A stretch of DNA of 35,691 nucleotides. Origin: a bacterium MS4 (GTDB taxonomy: Bacteria > Bacillota > Clostridia > Oscillospirales > Acutalibacteraceae). Both the position numbers and the translations under genes were made by a program. Positions 1-35,691 of this stretch are shown here, in pieces. A model generated the notes under the pieces. The model ran no database searches. It saw only the letters and a list, made by a program, of their open reading frames with translations, and was not told the DNA's origin. Every line of letters starts with the position of its first letter. Position 1 is the stretch's first letter. The stretch spans positions 55,305 through 90,995 of the forward strand of contig CCFG01000013.1 in NCBI GenBank assembly GCA_000752215.1. Direction: 5' to 3'.

Positions 1-482
1 ATCGCTTTTACGGGACAGGCGCGGATGCAGGGGCGCATGGTGTCGGAAATCGCATTGTACGGGCAGGCCGCCGCACAGCGCCCGCATTCCTTGCACTTGG
101 CGGGATCGATGTATGCGCCCTTGGGAGTAATGGAAATGGCGCCGAACGGGCAGGCCGCGTGGCATTTTTTCGCAAGGCAGTGCTGACAGTTGTCCGTGAC
201 GTTAAAACGGTTGATCGGACAGCCCTCGCAGGCCGCCGTAAGCACCGCGACAATATTGCCGTCATCCTGTCCGGGCAGGTTTTCCCCGCGCGCGGAAATC
301 AGGCGTTCCCGGATAATTTCGCGCTCACGGTAAACGCAGCAGCGGAATTCGGGCAGAGGCCCCGGAATGATTTCATAAGGGATGGTGTCAAGGTGTTCCT
401 TCAGCGTGCCTTCGTATGCGTATTTGGCGGCCTTGGTCAGTACTTCGTATTTTAATTGCTTGGCGTCATTATTATATTGCAT
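1..482 (-). CDS. [FeFe]-hydrogenase, group-B type, N-terminal part (runs off the left edge)
   Basis: Only the first 160 codons lie in the window. The ATG at 482 has a GAGGA ribosome binding site and lies 13 nt after the upstream phosphatase stop. After about 70 residues the translation shows a cysteine-rich ferredoxin region: ACEGCPINRFNVTDNCQHC, then CHAACPFGAIS, then CKECGRCAAACPYNAIS, then RPCIRACPVKAI. This layout (an ACEGCP-type lead-in, two [4Fe-4S] motifs, a further RPC..ACP motif) is what I know from group-B [FeFe]-hydrogenases of Clostridia. The H-cluster domain should follow beyond the window. Expected role: ferredoxin-linked hydrogen production or uptake in the cytoplasm. The group assignment comes from motif memory, not a search. 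It is the last visible gene of the operon that includes the sensory hydrogenase. Confidence 0.8.
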   Translation of the reverse strand, partial: MQYNNDAKQLKYEVLTKAAKYAYEGTLKEHLDTIPYEIIPGPLPEFRCCVYREREIIRERLISARGENLPGQDDGNIVAVLTAACEGCPINRFNVTDNCQHCLAKKCHAACPFGAISITPKGAYIDPAKCKECGRCAAACPYNAISDTMRPCIRACPVKA

Positions 483-495
483 GAATAATCCTCAT

Positions 496-1674
496 CTAAT
501 AGTAATATTTTTCGACTTTTTTGCCGAGCCGCTGCACAAGGGTGCAGAGCTCCTCGATCAGCTTGATCTTAATGCTCAGGTCGGCCGGGAGGCCGGGGTT
601 CTGGTGGGCGGGATTGATCGCCCTGCCGATATAAACCTTCAGGTCGGTACAGTCCTCCAGAAGAAGCCTGGCGAGCATTGCCGCGCCGTTCGGCTGGTCC
701 AGAACATGAAAATAGTAGGAGTCGGTCTGGTGGGAAAGGTAGTCCTTCAGGATTTCCACCGTCCGGCTGAGAGTCAGGACGCCCTCGGTCACAAGGTCGA
801 TCCCCTCTATTTTTCCGGTGGGCGGGATATCCGGGTCCGTGTAATGAATCGTGGTCTCGATCTTCCGGTTCAACACTCTGGATACGATATTGGCGCTGGT
901 TCCCCCGCAGACCACCCTCTTTGCCGGGGAGGTCATAAAATCATGGACGATTCTGGCGTCGTCCTCCTTGCGGACCGGCGGCCCGGAAAGAAGGCTGATC
1001 ATACAGCGCGGGGTGACTTTTAAAATCAGATCGGTGGAATCGTCCCCCGGCTTTCCCAAGTAAAGCTCGTTGACGGCCTGCGACAGCGAAATCGCAAGCC
1101 GCGGCGCGGACGTTTCCTTCAGGGTCGTCTTGGCAAGCCATGCGGAGACATTTTCCCAGTTCCAGCCGAAATTAAGCGCCTGGCCCACACCGGCGTAGAC
1201 AATGCCGTCGCTGACAAGAGCGATCACATCTCCGGGGCAGACGGAAAAATGGCTTTCCGTTACGGTCTTTCCGGCGCACTCTTTGATTTCCGAGCAGTCC
1301 TCCAGATCGATGATCCTGCCGTTTCGCACAAAGATGCAGGGGGGATTGTCAAACTCCACCAAAGAGACGTCGCCGTCGTCGGACACCCGGATGACGCTGA
1401 AGGTAGAGTAGGCCAGCTTGCGGATATTGCAGACCGGCAGCGTTTTGGCGATCGTCTCGACCGCCTCCACCAGGGTCGCGCCCTCCTCCAGCATGGTGGA
1501 AATAATGCTGCTGGTCAGCGTGGAAAGGATATTGGCTTTTACCCCGCTGCCCAGCCCGTCGGCCAGAACCGCGATGGTGGCGTCCTTTGTACGCGAGACG
1601 ATCACCTTGTCCCCGCACAGCTCTTCGCCGTATTTATTCAGACTTCGATATGCGGTGTCAACATGCATTTTCAT
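496..1674 (-). CDS. SpoIIE/PP2C-like serine phosphatase linked to sensory hydrogenase
   Basis: A 392-residue soluble protein. Residues 1-220 look like a PP2C/SpoIIE catalytic domain with the expected acidic metal ligands: ADGLGSG (D39-G40), SDGI (D156-G157) and GDDSTD (D211-D212). Residues about 225-392 form a second, unrecognised domain that begins LLSGPPVRKEDDARIV and contains VVCGGTSANIVSR. Its start ATG overlaps the stop of the upstream hydrogenase gene (ATGA), so the two are translationally coupled. [FeFe]-hydrogenases of the sensory group linked to phosphatases are a recognised class. The inference is that this enzyme turns the hydrogen or redox signal of its partner into dephosphorylation of an unknown target. 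No transmembrane segment is evident. Confidence 0.85.
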   Translation of the reverse strand: MKMHVDTAYRSLNKYGEELCGDKVIVSRTKDATIAVLADGLGSGVKANILSTLTSSIISTMLEEGATLVEAVETIAKTLPVCNIRKLAYSTFSVIRVSDDGDVSLVEFDNPPCIFVRNGRIIDLEDCSEIKECAGKTVTESHFSVCPGDVIALVSDGIVYAGVGQALNFGWNWENVSAWLAKTTLKETSAPRLAISLSQAVNELYLGKPGDDSTDLILKVTPRCMISLLSGPPVRKEDDARIVHDFMTSPAKRVVCGGTSANIVSRVLNRKIETTIHYTDPDIPPTGKIEGIDLVTEGVLTLSRTVEILKDYLSHQTDSYYFHVLDQPNGAAMLARLLLEDCTDLKVYIGRAINPAHQNPGLPADLSIKIKLIEELCTLVQRLGKKVEKYYY

Positions 1675-3383
1675 TGTTCATCACCGTCAAACACAATCAT
1701 ATTTTTCAGTTTGGTCAGCGTGACCTTTGTCTCCGCCGTCGTTTCCCCGAGCAGGCTCGCAATCTGCTGCGCGGCAATCATTTGTTTGTCAATGACCTTC
1801 TGGGCCATCTCCATGGTCTCACTGCGAAGCTTATACTTGCTTTCCAGCTCCGCTTCCTCACGGGTGATATCCTTGTAAATCCCCATGGCGATGTTTTGCT
1901 TCGCGATATACACGATGGTCTGCATCGTGGTAATTCCATAATCCCGGAAATGCACCTTTTTGTCCGGGATGGACTGTCTTGCATCAAAAACATATTGAAA
2001 ATCGGAGGAATCCATAATCTCGTAAATGCATTTCTGCAGTGCCTCGTGGCGGGAAATCTGAAACGCCTTCTCCGCCGCGGTGTTGAATTCAATGATATTC
2101 AGGTCCTTGTCAACAATGATGGTGATGTTGGGCGTTTCGGTCAGCACACAGTTGGAAAGCGATTCGGCGCGTTCCTTCATGTACGGCATACACATGGTCA
2201 GCTCGGCCTTGTTCTGGTAAACGGCAACCGCCTTGTCCCGGCAGGTCGGATAGCCGCAGGAACCGCAGTTGAGCTCATCCTCCGGCGACTCCTTGCCGAT
2301 TTTCGCCAGAATCATGCGGATCGTCGCTTCATCGGGAATATCTTCCCGCACGGAGCAGTCCACAAACTGCATCCCCATGGGGATCTGCTCCGGCAGATTG
2401 GGATATTCACCGGCGTCCTCATCCGCGTATTTTCTGACCTTCATGGAGGATGAGAAACGAGAAGCCGCATCCCTGTTGGAAATAGGACCGTTGATGCAGC
2501 CGTCCCTGCACATGTTGATCTCTATAAAACAATGCCGCAGATCGCCGCGTTCCAGCGCTTTGCAGAGGTCAATACATTCCGCGGAGCCGCTTACGCTGAG
2601 CATCTTCCAGTCGCCCGTATCGCCCATGGAGCGAAGGGAAGCGATGATTCCGTCCGTTACCGGATACATCCGCAGGATTCGCGAGCTGGGATTGAGAAAG
2701 GATGCCGGCTGCGCTTCCTGAATAGAAATATGTTCTTCCTCCATCCATCTGGCCAGATCGTCAAAGGTAATCACGGCGTCCACGTCATTGTTGTGGCGGA
2801 TATCGGCGGCCTCACCGATCTTTGCGATGCACGGGCCTACGAATACGACGCGGGTACCGTATCCAAAAGTCTTTTTCAGCAGCCTGGCGTGCGCGATCAT
2901 CGGAGAAACCACGGGCGCCATCTGGTCGACCAGAGACGGATAATAATGCTCGATCAGCCTGTTTGCCGAAGGACAGCAGGTGGTGATCATATTTTCCATG
3001 CGGTTTTCCTGCATCAGCCGGTGGTACTCCGCCGTCACATAGGCAGCTCCCATGCTTGTTTCGGCTACGCCGTAAAAGCCCAGAGCTTTCACGGCCCCAG
3101 CAAACTTTTGCACATCATCGAAATCAAAGGAGCCCACGTAGGACGGGGCCACGGAAAGAATGGTCCGGACGCCCTTCCCGATCATTTCCCTGACAGCCGC
3201 AGCATCGCTGTTCAGCGTCTTTGCATTCTGCGGGCACTGCTCCAGGCAGGTTCCGCATAAAACACAGTTGCGCTCAATAATCTGTGCCTGTGCATGTTCC
3301 ACTTTAATGGATTTAACCGGGCAAACCTTTACGCACTTATAACAGTTTTTACAGTTTGCCGCCTTTAAACCGATAATGCCCAT
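1671..3383 (-). CDS. Sensory [FeFe]-hydrogenase with PAS domain (HydS-like, phosphatase-linked group C)
   Basis: 570 residues. Domains in order: a 2x[4Fe-4S] ferredoxin (C11/14/17/21 and C40/43/46/50); an H-cluster domain, residues about 70-350, with L1 TTCCP (C136, C137), L2 GPCIAK (C185) and L3 MCRDGC (C292, C296); a further [4Fe-4S] motif CGSCGYPTC with C398; a PAS domain at about 410-505; and a C-terminal helical, probably coiled-coil, segment to 560. All four expected H-cluster cysteine ligands are present, but the surroundings are degenerate (TTCCPSAN, NGP instead of GGP), as expected for a sensor rather than a fast catalyst. Architecture and the adjoining phosphatase match sensory group-C hydrogenases. 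It lies 28 nt behind the [2Fe-2S] gene. Likely role: sensing hydrogen or redox state and passing it on through PAS and coiled coil. Confidence 0.88.
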   Translation of the reverse strand: MGIIGLKAANCKNCYKCVKVCPVKSIKVEHAQAQIIERNCVLCGTCLEQCPQNAKTLNSDAAAVREMIGKGVRTILSVAPSYVGSFDFDDVQKFAGAVKALGFYGVAETSMGAAYVTAEYHRLMQENRMENMITTCCPSANRLIEHYYPSLVDQMAPVVSPMIAHARLLKKTFGYGTRVVFVGPCIAKIGEAADIRHNNDVDAVITFDDLARWMEEEHISIQEAQPASFLNPSSRILRMYPVTDGIIASLRSMGDTGDWKMLSVSGSAECIDLCKALERGDLRHCFIEINMCRDGCINGPISNRDAASRFSSSMKVRKYADEDAGEYPNLPEQIPMGMQFVDCSVREDIPDEATIRMILAKIGKESPEDELNCGSCGYPTCRDKAVAVYQNKAELTMCMPYMKERAESLSNCVLTETPNITIIVDKDLNIIEFNTAAEKAFQISRHEALQKCIYEIMDSSDFQYVFDARQSIPDKKVHFRDYGITTMQTIVYIAKQNIAMGIYKDITREEAELESKYKLRSETMEMAQKVIDKQMIAAQQIASLLGETTAETKVTLTKLKNMIVFDGDEQ

Positions 3384-3411
3384 TTTATGTCCCCACTTCC
3401 GCTTTACTCAG

Positions 3412-3666
3412 TTACTTGATTCTCGGCACAATTTCGTAGTTAAAAAATGTTTCTGCTTCAGAGGGAGTAACATTAAAGCGCTCCCCGTCCACACAGATGC
3501 ACACGCCGTTCTTGGAGCATTCCCCCATACAGAACGAACCCTTGAGCGTAACTTTGTCCTCCAGACGGTGAAACGATATCAGCCTTTCAAAAATTTTGAT
3601 GACGTCGCGCGAACCCTTCAGATGACAGGAACTTCCTATACAGATCGTGATTTCCAAAGTCGCCAT
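3412..3666 (-). CDS. Thioredoxin-like [2Fe-2S] ferredoxin (NuoE/HydC-like small subunit)
   Basis: About 84 residues, a short [2Fe-2S] protein of the thioredoxin-like fold. The four ligand cysteines are in CIGSSCHLKGS and CMGEC, the pattern of the C-terminal domain of NuoE. The chosen start is the ATG at 3666 (MATLEIT); a GTG at 3675 is the alternative, and neither has a well-spaced ribosome binding site. It is the first gene of the hydrogenase operon, 28 nt ahead of the sensory hydrogenase, with a Rex-type operator directly in front. Likely role: electron transfer to or from one of the [FeFe] proteins encoded behind it; the partner is not proved by the sequence. Confidence 0.82.
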   Translation of the reverse strand: MATLEITICIGSSCHLKGSRDVIKIFERLISFHRLEDKVTLKGSFCMGECSKNGVCICVDGERFNVTPSEAETFFNYEIVPRIK

Positions 3667-3682
3667 CCCTCTCACTCATCAT

Positions 3683-3700
3683 TTGTTAATTTTTTAACAT
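3683..3700. promoter_or_regulatory. Rex-type redox operator before the hydrogenase operon
   Basis: Plus strand reads TTGTTAATTTTTTAACAT. The Rex consensus in Clostridia and relatives is TTGTTAA-N4-TTAACAA, so 13 of 14 defined bases match. The site lies 16 bp upstream of the ferredoxin start, so a bound repressor would block transcription. Rex senses the NADH/NAD+ ratio and is known to control fermentation and hydrogenase genes. Confidence 0.7.
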
Positions 3701-6800: not shown

Positions 6801-8051
6801 TCAGAATTTGCGGGTAAAGATATCGCTGTGTTCGATCAGGCTCTCCACCGTGTCAAAGCCAAGCCGGTGCAGCAGTTCGATTACATAGGGGTTGTCTATT
6901 GGGGTCTGATAGACGGCTTCCTGGCCGTACTGGTTCACGTTTTCGCGGCCCTCCTCGCGGGGGATCAAAGCCTTCGGCCCGCCGACACAGCCGCCGACAC
7001 AGCCCATGCCCTCCAGAAAGTTCGCGTCTATTTTTCCTGCCAGCAGGTCGTTGATCATCGCCTTGCAGGCGGGGACCCCGTCGGCCTGATGGGCGCGAAC
7101 GGTGATTTTCCGGTCGGGGCTCAAGCGTTTGGACGTCCTCTGAACCGCCTCGCTGACACCGCCGCTTCTGGCGTAAATTCTTCCCGCGCGCGACGAGTGG
7201 TCGCGTTCGTCCTCCGGCAGCGCGGCAAGGTCCAGCTTTGCGAATTCAAAAACATCCTGTATTTCCTGAAAGGTCAGGACAAAGTCCGTGGAATCCGAAA
7301 TATCCGGTTCGCGCGCTTCGGCCTTCTTGGCGATGCAGGGCCCGATAAAGACGGTAAGCGCATCCGGATGAATGGCTTTAATGGCACGCCCGCAGGCGAC
7401 CATGGGCGAAACCGCGCCGGGCACATGGGGCATCAGCTCGTGGTACACCTTGCGGATCATGGCGATCCACATGGGGCAGCAGCAGCTGGTAAGCTGGAAG
7501 TCGGTTTCCTTAACGATATTTTTATTAAATTCCAGTGCCTCTTTCAGGGTAAGGATGTCCGCAAAAAGGGCAACCTCAACCATACCGGCAAACCCGAGCA
7601 TTTTAAAGGCGGTGCGCAGTTTCCCGGGAGTCACGTCTTTGCTGAACTGGCTGATAAAGGCGGGGGCAATCATTGCGTAAACAGGGGCCTTCGCTTCATG
7701 TACGGCGGCAAGCGCGGGCAGAATGTCTCGGCTGGCCGTCAGCTTTTTGGTCTGGCAGCTCTCAACGCACTCGGAGCAGCCGACGCACAGGTCTTTATTG
7801 ATTTGAACATTTCCCTTTTCATCCCTGTAAAGGGCGTCAAAAAGGCATTTCCCCTCGCAGGGCGCCTGCTCGCTGCTGGAGCATTCGCATTCGCCGATGC
7901 GGAGCACCGGTGCGTACTTTTCCGGATTCAGCAGACAGTCAAGGTGATGCGGGTCGAATTCCTGCTCCCGAATTTTTTCAAGCTCCTGCGGTTCCCTGTT
8001 TTCCACCGAAGCTTTTACAAGTCTTTCGTATAATTCATTGAATGTAGTCAT
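6801..8051 (-). CDS. Stand-alone [FeFe]-hydrogenase-like iron-sulfur protein
   Basis: 416 residues. The N-terminal about 50 residues are helical and charged. A cysteine-rich stretch follows (C55, C57, C65, C69), then one [4Fe-4S] motif CVGCSECVESC (C89/92/95/99). The H-cluster domain occupies residues about 120-400: L1 TSCCCPMW (C190-C192), L2 GPCIAKKAEA (C239) and L3 EGMGCVGGCVGGPK (C351, C355). Every H-cluster ligand is present and L3 is close to the catalytic consensus, so enzyme activity is plausible. It is shorter than typical group-A enzymes, has a single [4Fe-4S] motif plus an odd Cys cluster, and is not next to partner subunits. AGGAGGG precedes the ATG at 8051. The exact group (B or D type) cannot be fixed here. 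Confidence 0.87.
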   Translation of the reverse strand: MTTFNELYERLVKASVENREPQELEKIREQEFDPHHLDCLLNPEKYAPVLRIGECECSSSEQAPCEGKCLFDALYRDEKGNVQINKDLCVGCSECVESCQTKKLTASRDILPALAAVHEAKAPVYAMIAPAFISQFSKDVTPGKLRTAFKMLGFAGMVEVALFADILTLKEALEFNKNIVKETDFQLTSCCCPMWIAMIRKVYHELMPHVPGAVSPMVACGRAIKAIHPDALTVFIGPCIAKKAEAREPDISDSTDFVLTFQEIQDVFEFAKLDLAALPEDERDHSSRAGRIYARSGGVSEAVQRTSKRLSPDRKITVRAHQADGVPACKAMINDLLAGKIDANFLEGMGCVGGCVGGPKALIPREEGRENVNQYGQEAVYQTPIDNPYVIELLHRLGFDTVESLIEHSDIFTRKF

Positions 8052-34524: not shown

Positions 34525-34601
34525 TGGTGGGCCATCAAGGACTCGAACCTTGGACCGACCGGTTATGAGCCGGTTGCTCTAACCAACTGAGCTAATGGCC
34601 C
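34525..34601 (-). tRNA. tRNA with anticodon CAU (tRNA-Ile2 or elongator tRNA-Met)
   Basis: A full cloverleaf on the minus strand: GGGCCAT/ATGGCCC acceptor, anticodon stem ACCGG/CCGGT around CTCATAA, T-arm GGTTCGAGTCC, CCA encoded. The D-arm and anticodon context (CTCAUAACC) resemble tRNA-Ile2 of Bacillus, the substrate of TilS, but an elongator tRNA-Met cannot be excluded by eye. It is not an initiator, as the anticodon stem lacks three GC pairs. Confidence 0.93.
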
Positions 34602-34652
34602 GTATTGAAAACAAAGGACAGAAAAGAATTCTGTCTAACAAAGTGCTTGAAT

Positions 34653-34681
34653 ATAATACCACAAATCTGCATAAAATGCAA
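34653..34681 (-). promoter_or_regulatory. Promoter of the CAU tRNA
   Basis: Minus strand: TTGCAT (34676-34681), 17-bp spacer, TATTAT (34653-34658). The tRNA is thus transcribed separately from the rRNA operon. Confidence 0.75.
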
Positions 34682-34920
34682 TCTCAAGTTGTAATTTTTA
34701 CGACCCAAAGAGACTGAATAAAAGGCGCAGATGAATACAAGCCAAGTCGATAGGCTTTCTCTCAGATACTCGAAAATATAAACAACCTCTTTATAAGACA
34801 TTAAAGAGATTCCTCTTCTCTCCAAATTATGCTCGCCCCTAGTCATGATCCAAAACAATCCGGTCTGCAATTTTCCAGCGCCCTGTTTGAATCTCTCAGG
34901 ACATACGGAATACAAACACA
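34682..34920. other. Spacer without recognised content
   Basis: About 240 bp between the tRNA promoter and the terminator of the rRNA operon. A minus-strand frame of 109 codons runs through it but continues into the tRNA and its promoter, so it is not taken as a gene. No repeat or hairpin stands out. Confidence 0.4.
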
Positions 34921-34950
34921 AAGACCACCAATCCTGCGACTGGTGGTCTT
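34921..34950 (-). terminator. Terminator of the rRNA operon
   Basis: A perfect 10-bp stem AAGACCACCA/TGGTGGTCTT with a 10-nt loop; the minus strand continues TGTGTTTG. It lies directly after tRNA-Asn. Confidence 0.82.
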
Positions 34951-34953
34951 CTC

Positions 34954-35029
34954 TGGCTCCCCAAGTTGGACTCGAACCAACGACCCTGCGGTTAACAGCC
35001 GCATGCTCTACCGGCTGAGCTATTGAGGA
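34954..35029 (-). tRNA. tRNA-Asn (anticodon GUU)
   Basis: Cloverleaf on the minus strand with acceptor TCCTCAA/TTGGGGA, anticodon loop CTGTTAA and T-arm GGTTCGAGTCC. CCA is encoded. It is the last gene of the rRNA operon, about 10 nt behind 5S. Confidence 0.95.
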
Positions 35030-35038
35030 ATATTTGTG

Positions 35039-35152
<114 letters not shown>

Positions 35153-35219
35153 CTAAACTTATTGAATTGTAATTCTCCGACTCGGCGGAAACAAAAACTG
35201 AATGCCATAGAACAGAAAA

Positions 35220-35294
35220 TGGTGACCCGTGGGAGAATCGAACTCCCGTTATCGGCGTGAGAGGCCGGTGTCTTAACCGCTTGACCAACGGGCC
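35220..35294 (-). tRNA. tRNA-Glu (anticodon CUC)
   Basis: Minus strand begins GGCCCGTTGGTCAAGCGG, the typical tRNA-Glu start, with anticodon loop CTCTCAC and encoded CCA. The outermost anticodon-stem pair (27-43) is a C-A mismatch. It lies between tRNA-Lys and 5S. Confidence 0.93.
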
Positions 35295-35355
35295 ATATCT
35301 TTCATACAGTCAGATGCAGAGGCCAGAGGCTCCAGCCCCCGTTCCGACTTCTTAA

Positions 35356-35431
35356 TGGTGCACCATCAGGGACTCGAACCCGGGACACCCTGATTAAGAG
35401 TCAGGTGCTCTACCAACTGAGCTAATGGTGC
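35356..35431 (-). tRNA. tRNA-Lys (anticodon CUU)
   Basis: Minus strand: acceptor GCACCAT/ATGGTGC, D-arm AGCTCAGTTGGTAGAGC, anticodon loop CTCTTAA, T-arm GGTTCGAGTCC, CCA encoded. It is the first tRNA after the 23S gene. Confidence 0.95.
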
Positions 35432-35566
35432 ATATGGCAGGTTGAGCCTGCACGCTCCGAATTTTCATCCGCTGCTCTTTGCATTTCACAGGTACAATTG
35501 TACACTGAAAACTGAATAAAGGAAGGGAAGCAGAAGTAAGAAATAGAGGGTTGCCAAGAAAATTAT

Positions 35567-35691
35567 GGTCAAGCCCTCGGCCTATTAGTACTGCCAAGCT
35601 GAATACGTTACCGTACTTACACACGCAGCCTATCAACCTTGTAGTCTTCAAGGGGCCTTACTAGCTTACGCTATGGGATATCTAATCTTGG
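35567..35691 (-). rRNA. rrl: 23S ribosomal RNA, 3' end (runs off the right edge)
   Basis: Minus strand ends ...GGCAGTACTAATAGGCC and GAGGGCTTGACC, the conserved 3' end of 23S rRNA, preceded by the sarcin-ricin-distal segment GATAGGCTGCGTGTGTAAG. Only the last 125 bases are present. The 135-nt spacer to tRNA-Lys holds a 12-bp palindrome GTACAATTGTAC, perhaps part of the processing stem. Confidence 0.95.

Follow-up and report, generated by a model that had tools for sequence, protein, structure and literature searches.

Whether a hydrogen-sensing hydrogenase governs a second hydrogenase through a phosphatase, and whether such an arrangement is new, is the question raised by a 35,691-nucleotide stretch of DNA from the Acutalibacteraceae bacterium MS4 (contig CCFG01000013.1, positions 55,305 to 90,995; hereafter the window). 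The operon at its start had been read in an initial annotation as encoding a [2Fe-2S] protein, a sensory [FeFe] hydrogenase (HydS), a phosphatase and a group-B hydrogenase, with hydrogen or redox sensing by the H-cluster of HydS controlling the phosphatase, which would set the activity or expression of the hydrogenase encoded next. We found that this operon is real and mostly already described: judged from its gene order and domain content, it fits the hfsABCD type of Thermoanaerobacterium and group C3 of the hydrogenase database HydDB. The unexpected part is a sister locus on another contig of the same genome (C15), in which HydS and phosphatase genes are followed by a gene for a TnpB-like protein and by an RNA with a pseudoknot.

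An hfsABCD-type operon with a phosphatase-linked sensory hydrogenase

The four genes are co-directed, as annotated, all lying on the minus strand over window positions 3675..3, and their names are backed by Pfam and NCBIfam. The [2Fe-2S] gene is separated from HydS by 28 nt, HydS and the phosphatase share the ATGA overlap noted earlier (1674-1671), and 13 nt lie between the phosphatase and the hydrogenase. The features of the operon are the following (aa, amino acids; FeS, iron-sulfur).

3412..3675, minus strand: thioredoxin-like [2Fe-2S] protein in the hfsA position, 87 aa, GTG start (PF01257, 26.3 bits; cut-off 24.8)
1671..3383, minus strand: HydS, sensory [FeFe] hydrogenase with PAS domain in the hfsB position, 570 aa (Fer4; Fe_hyd_lg_C, 182.9 bits; C-terminal FeS motif; PAS)
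2484..3164, minus strand: H-cluster domain of HydS, residues 74-300 (PF02906)
2184..2273, minus strand: C-terminal four-cysteine FeS motif of HydS, residues 371-400 (PF04060)
1863..2141, minus strand: PAS domain of HydS, residues ~415-507 (PF00989, 22.6 bits, cut-off 22.6; PF13426, 21.4 bits, under its cut-off of 27)
1704..1796, minus strand: conserved C-terminal stretch of HydS (KQMxxAQ.IASLLGETTAETK), conserved in a 27-row alignment
496..1674, minus strand: SpoIIE/RsbU-type PP2C phosphatase with an extra C-terminal domain in the hfsC position, 392 aa (PF07228, 54.7 bits; cut-off 25)
1015..1584, minus strand: PP2C catalytic domain, phosphatase residues 31-220 (PF07228), with invariant acids
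499..1002, minus strand: C-terminal domain of the phosphatase, residues 225-392, without Pfam family
3..482, minus strand: group-B-type [FeFe] hydrogenase, N-terminal part, in the hfsD position, 160 aa, open at the window edge

The [2Fe-2S] protein is short and of NuoE type, with the cysteine pattern C-x4-C ... C-x3-C. In HydS, the H-cluster ligands reported as intact (C137, C185, C292 and C296) were all present and proved invariant in 136/136 aligned HydS rows (130 distinct, six loci being common to the family and database sets described below), as did cysteines 373, 376, 381 and 398 of the C-terminal FeS motif and all other FeS cysteines checked. The residue just before C137, a position that we take to hold the proton-transfer cysteine in other enzymes, was Cys in 116 of these rows, Ala in 13 and Ser in 7. 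The PAS domain proposed earlier was recovered, with PF00989 exactly at its cut-off, and the conserved C-terminal stretch is likely to serve as an output helix.

The description of the third product as a PP2C/SpoIIE-like phosphatase with its metal ligands also held: D39, D156, D211 and D212, among which we take the metal-binding acids to be, were invariant in 52/52 aligned rows, and an AlphaFold model built with 52 sequences reached a predicted local distance difference test score (pLDDT) of 89.4. Foldseek searches with this model returned 3pu9 as the best match and also found SpoIIE (5mqh and 5ucg), the RsbU protein Rv1364c (3ke6) and RsbX-type PP2Cs. Since it scored 38.1 bits with TIGR02865 (SpoIIE), under the NCBIfam cut-off of 490.8, the window phosphatase is a relative of SpoIIE and not SpoIIE itself.

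The hydrogenase part gave 183.5 bits with TIGR04105 over 157 residues, a score to be read against a whole-protein cut-off of 450 with only a 160-aa part present. Window position 1 comes directly after a single N (C13:55304, L009:9305) that has an exact 154-bp repeat on both sides; the break in the gene therefore looks like an assembly join, two overlapping contigs having been joined unmerged, and we rejected it as a biological event. In a same-genus genome the hydrogenase gene is whole (483 aa, 93% identical). A further monomeric [FeFe] hydrogenase-like gene lies at window positions 6801-8051 on the minus strand (416 aa; TIGR04105, 302.5 bits, below the cut-off of 450), and such a gene also neighbours the cassette of G025, a genome from the same genus (L042).

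Conservation of the gene order and of the phosphatase C-terminal domain

We examined the gene order in two sets of relatives. In the family search, 50 of 150 genomes carried HydS at E<=1e-60 (52 matches), and 42 of the 52 matches, our own two included, were fetched with wide flanks; the wider contig-database set was limited to the top 80 among at least 574 relatives. The phosphatase followed HydS directly in 42/42 family loci (40 of them with a full-length phosphatase) and in 79/80 database loci, the single exception being a contig that stops ~100 nt past HydS. With longest-frame starts, the two genes overlapped in 34/42 and 69/80 loci. A co-directed [2Fe-2S] gene stood upstream of HydS in 35/42 family, 64/80 database and 12/12 class loci, and a group-B-type hydrogenase came next after the phosphatase in 33/42 family and 48/80 database loci. 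In one family locus and three database loci, hydABC lay directly behind the phosphatase (L071, L140, L146 and L156), and in L081 it lay ahead of HydS. Thus the order, whose loss in relatives the initial annotation had held to count against its reading, was conserved. Alignment A10 was made without L103, whose tail is out of frame.

The second domain of the phosphatase (residues ~225-392) had no Pfam match, and all 50 listed Foldseek matches were PP2Cs or PP2C-containing proteins. A profile of this domain found 145 genes, spread over 122 of the 396 genomes sampled from the phylum. At least 120 of the 145 stood behind one of 126 listed HydS rows, a lower bound since the listing of HydS was incomplete; long frames (~550-900 aa, partial query match, other kind) were also left out. 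Ten of the other 25 genes were fetched: six adjoin HydS, one has no HydS in reach (L226), and three are stand-alone domains of 156-159 aa, each between two hydABC operons (L222:5623-6102, L223:5445-5915 and L224:5599-6075). We infer that the domain is a module tying the phosphatase to hydrogenases.

A proposed hydrogen-sensing switch at the fermentation branch

The arrangement had been described before, in papers that are represented here by excerpts. The hfsABCD operons of Thermoanaerobacterium (PMC5707799, PMC11837493) hold the same four kinds of product in the same order, A-B-C-D, as the window operon, although the lineage differs. HydDB defines [FeFe] group C3 as 'phosphatase-linked (putative)', with an undetermined role (PMC5037454), and this is the class of phosphatase-linked sensory hydrogenases to which the annotation had appealed; an H-cluster domain, a PAS domain and a neighbouring Ser/Thr phosphatase are common to both, the window operon being likened to C3 by these features (H-cluster cysteines, a PAS match at its cut-off and the linked phosphatase) rather than by a HydDB classifier or tree placement. 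An eight-gene cluster of Ruminococcus albus (sensory hydrogenase, phosphatase, group A1 hydrogenase and AdhE) likewise keeps sensor, phosphatase and hydrogenase together; it differs by its AdhE, whereas no adhE adjoins the window operon, and by a hydrogenase termed group A1 (PMC6776011). The reading of the operon as sensor, phosphatase and hydrogenase was thus right, but it was not new.

Published genetics bear on the direction of the signal. In T. saccharolyticum, where hfsABCD was deleted gene by gene, loss of hfsA or hfsB raised ethanol yield ~1.8-fold and adhE transcript two- to threefold, loss of hfsB increased hydrogenase activity, and loss of hfsC or hfsD left ethanol at the wild-type level (PMC5707799). 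High ethanol in T. thermosaccharolyticum required that hfsD, hydAB and nfnAB be present and hfsB absent (PMC11837493), and the R. albus cluster falls 111-fold in co-culture at the transcript level (PMC6776011). From the hfs deletions and the R. albus data together, we infer that HydS would restrain the phosphatase and that the phosphatase would favour high hydrogenase/AdhE flux. The annotation had called both the phosphatase target and the direction of the signal undescribed: the former stands, no target being named in the excerpts of the cited literature on these operons, while the latter is partly known from the hfs and R. albus genetics. A 2024 review states that the signal transduction mechanism of sensory [FeFe] hydrogenases is unknown (PMC11376134).

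We propose, with a probability of about 0.7 for the proposal as a whole, that in hfsABCD-type operons H2 or the redox state of the H-cluster would change HydS, that this change would be relayed by the PAS domain and the conserved helix at the C-terminus of HydS to the phosphatase of the overlapping gene, and that the partner which the phosphatase dephosphorylates would set the exit of electrons from fermentation, either through the group B or bifurcating hydrogenase or to ethanol via AdhE. HydS and the phosphatase would touch each other, and the C-terminal domain would point the phosphatase at a hydrogenase-linked partner. On the sequence side, the basis for this proposal is the genes and their motifs, the conserved order, the PP2C fold and a C-terminal domain tied to hydrogenase genes. 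Some points weigh against it. Another gene stood behind the phosphatase in 6/42 family and 21/80 database loci, with 5/80 ending there; orthology to the Thermoanaerobacterium Hfs proteins is argued from the order of the genes and from how those proteins have been described; and in T. thermosaccharolyticum with a full hfs deletion, overexpressed hfsD alone gave high ethanol, provided that hydAB and nfnAB were there (PMC11837493), so hfsC is sometimes dispensable.

It is possible, though unlikely, that the phosphatase instead works against a kinase acting on a regulator, anti-anti-sigma-like or other, with transcription as the output. In favour of this, the nearest folds are SpoIIE, RsbU and RsbX, and regulation of the R. 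albus cluster was visible in transcripts (PMC6776011). Two candidate kinase partners were found. On contig C17 (L011:13308-15745), a DRTGG gene, an RsbW-like HATPase gene, a PAS-less HydS-like gene and a DRTGG-like gene lie near hydrogenase genes. In the gut Clostridia loci L107, L117 and L133, which run AdhE, a 249-aa APH-family protein, one or two [2Fe-2S] genes, HydS, phosphatase and hydrogenase (Pfam names for L133), the candidate is the APH-family protein, of kinase fold (APH/RIO-type; PF01636, 53.3 bits), between adhE and the cassette. However, the window cassette has no kinase gene, and the listed cassette loci showed neither a STAS nor a sigma gene, no profile search having been aimed at these. 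That HydS is a working subunit of one four-protein hydrogenase complex, with the phosphatase incidental, is very improbable: a 2026 paper leaves open whether HfsABC is a hydrogenase without HfsD (PMC13277313), but deletion of hfsB raises hydrogenase activity and ethanol (PMC5707799), characterised HydS enzymes have very low activity (PMC11376134), and the PAS domain and the phosphatase are conserved alongside HydS.

At the other end of the window, positions 34525-35691 hold genes for tRNAs and a 5S rRNA as well as the 3' end of one for 23S rRNA.

A sister cassette with a TnpB-like gene

A second HydS, 41% identical to that of the window, is encoded on C15, in the following cassette.

L010:6367-10572: HydS2, phosphatase, (AdhE), TnpB-like gene and pseudoknot RNA, with kin in L062, L086, L087, L091, L092 and L210-L221

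Unlike hfsABCD, this locus carries the TnpB-like gene and the RNA after its phosphatase and has a divergent hydrogenase. The C15 phosphatase lacks both the C-terminal domain and key acids, with N at the position of D156 and S at that of D211. Such short paralogues without the C-terminal domain and the key metal acids were found at L010:8057-8734, L062:6754-7479 and L086:8909-9586; they are likely pseudophosphatases that several members of the genus have retained.

The 513-aa TnpB-like gene that follows was found in 4/11 genomes of the genus, all four with a C15-type HydS; in a fifth (G154) the C15-type HydS is cut by the contig end. In the database loci L091 and L092 it stands behind a full-length phosphatase. 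Within the class of L092's genome, 14/341 genomes carried it, L091 and L092 included; in the wider phylum sample a full-length match was present in 1/398 genomes (our own), with partial matches in 11 others, and in the phylum named for L091's genome it was present in 1/149, that of L091 itself. Spread across phyla was rejected, as the name 'Calditrichales' of L091 is doubtful, its genome having come up within the class of L092's Bacillota genome. In total, 18 genomes were carriers, and in 18/18 the TnpB-like gene lay downstream of HydS and phosphatase on the same strand (the L087 phosphatase being identified by eye), with AdhE between phosphatase and TnpB-like gene in 3/18 (L210-L212; AdhE by Pfam for L210). 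On a HydS tree built from 54 of the 136 rows, the 18 carriers needed two changes of state, against 15.3 expected from shuffled labels.

By profile comparison over RuvC-II/III and the zinc ribbon, the protein matched solved TnpB/Cas12f structures (9nzp, 2.6e-5; 9nzq, 3.5e-5; 7wju, 1.3e-4). The C15 protein stayed below the gathering score of PF07282 (18.7 vs 26.3 bits), and the match was weak in 6/6 members. With the RuvC-I and RuvC-II sites assigned by motif, the RuvC-I Asp position was A, S, G, T or V in 18/18 proteins, the RuvC-II Glu was kept in 6/18, and the RuvC-III residue was Glu in 13 proteins and Asp in the other 5; all 18 kept the four zinc cysteines. The ratio of nonsynonymous to synonymous substitution (dN/dS) was 0.09-0.16 in four pairs of genes, a fifth pair being saturated. 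The protein thus looks nuclease-dead but kept. An AlphaFold model from two sequences was unusable (pLDDT 40.4).

An RNA lies directly 3' of the TnpB-like gene (77-117 nt as trimmed) and ends in [GA]YAGC-TAT[CT]T, after which comes a hairpin that, by eye, is terminator-like in most loci; for TnpB itself, too, the RNA is located 3' of the gene, the guide coming after the scaffold (PMC10278001). We aligned 16 of the 18 RNAs (the near copies L217 and L086 were left out) and found 96.9% of 287 cells paired, with helices 1 and 3 and the pseudoknot 100% paired and helix 4 at 80.9%, while slid controls dropped to 19-50%. Double changes were present in 4/5 pairs of helix 1, 4/5 of helix 3 and 2/5 of the pseudoknot; further pair types, one of five measures, showed no excess (19 vs 21.3 in shuffles). 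Since single RNAs folded only slightly better than their shuffles (z -1.3 to -2.0), the case for the structure rests on covariation. In every one of the 18 carriers, a model of the RNA gave one strong match (61.8-99.3 bits) and otherwise matches of at most 23.4 bits; it gave nothing above 18.3 bits in six other genomes (four shown to be without the protein, two of unchecked status). No known family was recognised: L010, L062 and eight further loci had no Rfam match at the gathering score, and in permissive scans of two stretches every match fell far short of the gathering scores.

Promoter sites and the putative guide

The sequence just past the pseudoknot strand, at the expected start of a guide, reappears ahead of operons. 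The motif AAAACC[AG]TAT[CT]T occurred 16 times in 10/18 carrier loci, against 0.1 expected in a first-order model, and 14 of the 16 sites lay outside labelled genes, 107-467 bp before the first gene of a HydS operon or of hydABC (the other two being L062:5823 and L212:608). The window, L009, L011 and L012 did not contain it. Counting a variant in L092 that keeps ACCG, 556 bp before HydS, and the extended L220 locus, sites were present in 12/18 carrier genomes.

L210, L212 and L213 each have tandem sites at a spacing of 30-31 bp, which begin 60-61 and 30 bp ahead of the TTGACA of a TTGACA-N17-TATAAT promoter; L211 has one exact site 59 bp before TTGACA, and L213 a further site 185 bp before the NUOE gene of hydABC. 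Since the tandem sites lie upstream of the -35 box, their placement suggests an activator more than a roadblock. In this they differ from TldR proteins (PMC13418256, cited from an excerpt), which the C15-type loci resemble in the lost RuvC-I Asp, the kept zinc ribbon, the RNA directly behind the gene and, in 12/18 genomes, putative promoter sites that start like a guide; further differences are the very short matches, an RNA that runs into a terminator-like hairpin and the setting in a hydrogen-sensor operon. Among the top matches in the open-licence PMC literature, none dealt with a TnpB-like protein encoded within a hydrogen-sensor operon.

We tentatively consider, at a little under even odds, that C15-type operons act through a transcription factor guided by RNA. 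In this reading, a TnpB descendant with a dead RuvC site would use its own pseudoknot RNA, with a guide beginning TATCT or TATTT, to find AAAACC[AG]-flanked sites in the promoter regions of the sensor operon and the bifurcating hydrogenase, and would be tuned by HydS and the phosphatase according to H2. Alternatively, and somewhat more doubtfully, the motif would be the site of an ordinary DNA-binding protein and its likeness to the RNA due to chance.

The length of the matches favours the ordinary protein: the best match to the locus's own RNA was 10 nt in L212, 9 in L092, 8 in L210 and L091, 7 in L221 and 5-6 in the others. In TldR, it is seed positions 1-6 that matter (PMC13418256). A long guide was rejected, a 15-mer with two mismatches allowed having matched only itself and two 2-mismatch places in its own genome; 12-mers from the RNA with one mismatch found no promoter site in the loci, and nine-mers showed no general excess (3 vs 4.5 expected). 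When the 400 nt before each operon were tested without the motif, L210 and L212 were the only two of the 18 loci to differ clearly from their shuffles (0 and 1 of 100), with a mean prefix of 5.8 vs 5.0. No promoter site was found in 6/18 genomes (L214-L219). The motif was defined after the carrier loci had been seen, and the only later check, on seven extended loci, recovered it in 1/7 (L220, before NUOE), a looser pattern adding two matches away from the expected place (L236 and L238). Moreover, the carrier loci are related, so counts across them lack independence.

Against an ordinary protein stand the position of the sites before the HydS operon or hydABC in 12/18 genomes and the control of 117 HydS loci without the TnpB-like gene (111 distinct), where the motif occurred six times: three times within HydS, twice in what is a single locus ~4.5 kb away from HydS, and once in a stretch with an opposing open reading frame. 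In addition, RNA and site change together, both having TATTT in our own genus and TATCT in the others (T for C at position 4), and own guides matched better than shuffled ones (sum 81 vs 58.3, 1/20,000; TATCT loci alone 58 vs 51.8, 800/20,000), their first letters being partly matched by construction because the search motif includes TAT[CT]T. Overall, the likeness between promoter sites and guide is suggestive but short of proof.

Significance for hydrogen sensing in fermentation

The C-terminal domain of the phosphatase, which stands alone between hydrogenase operons in three genomes, offers a handle on the signal path of sensory [FeFe] hydrogenases. In the variant with the TnpB-like protein, the RNA and the promoter sequences themselves name candidate targets. 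If the RNA-guided reading of this variant is true, the ethanol/H2 branch of fermentation would be under a domesticated RNA-guided protein, which would take such control beyond that of flagellin described for TldR (PMC13418256).

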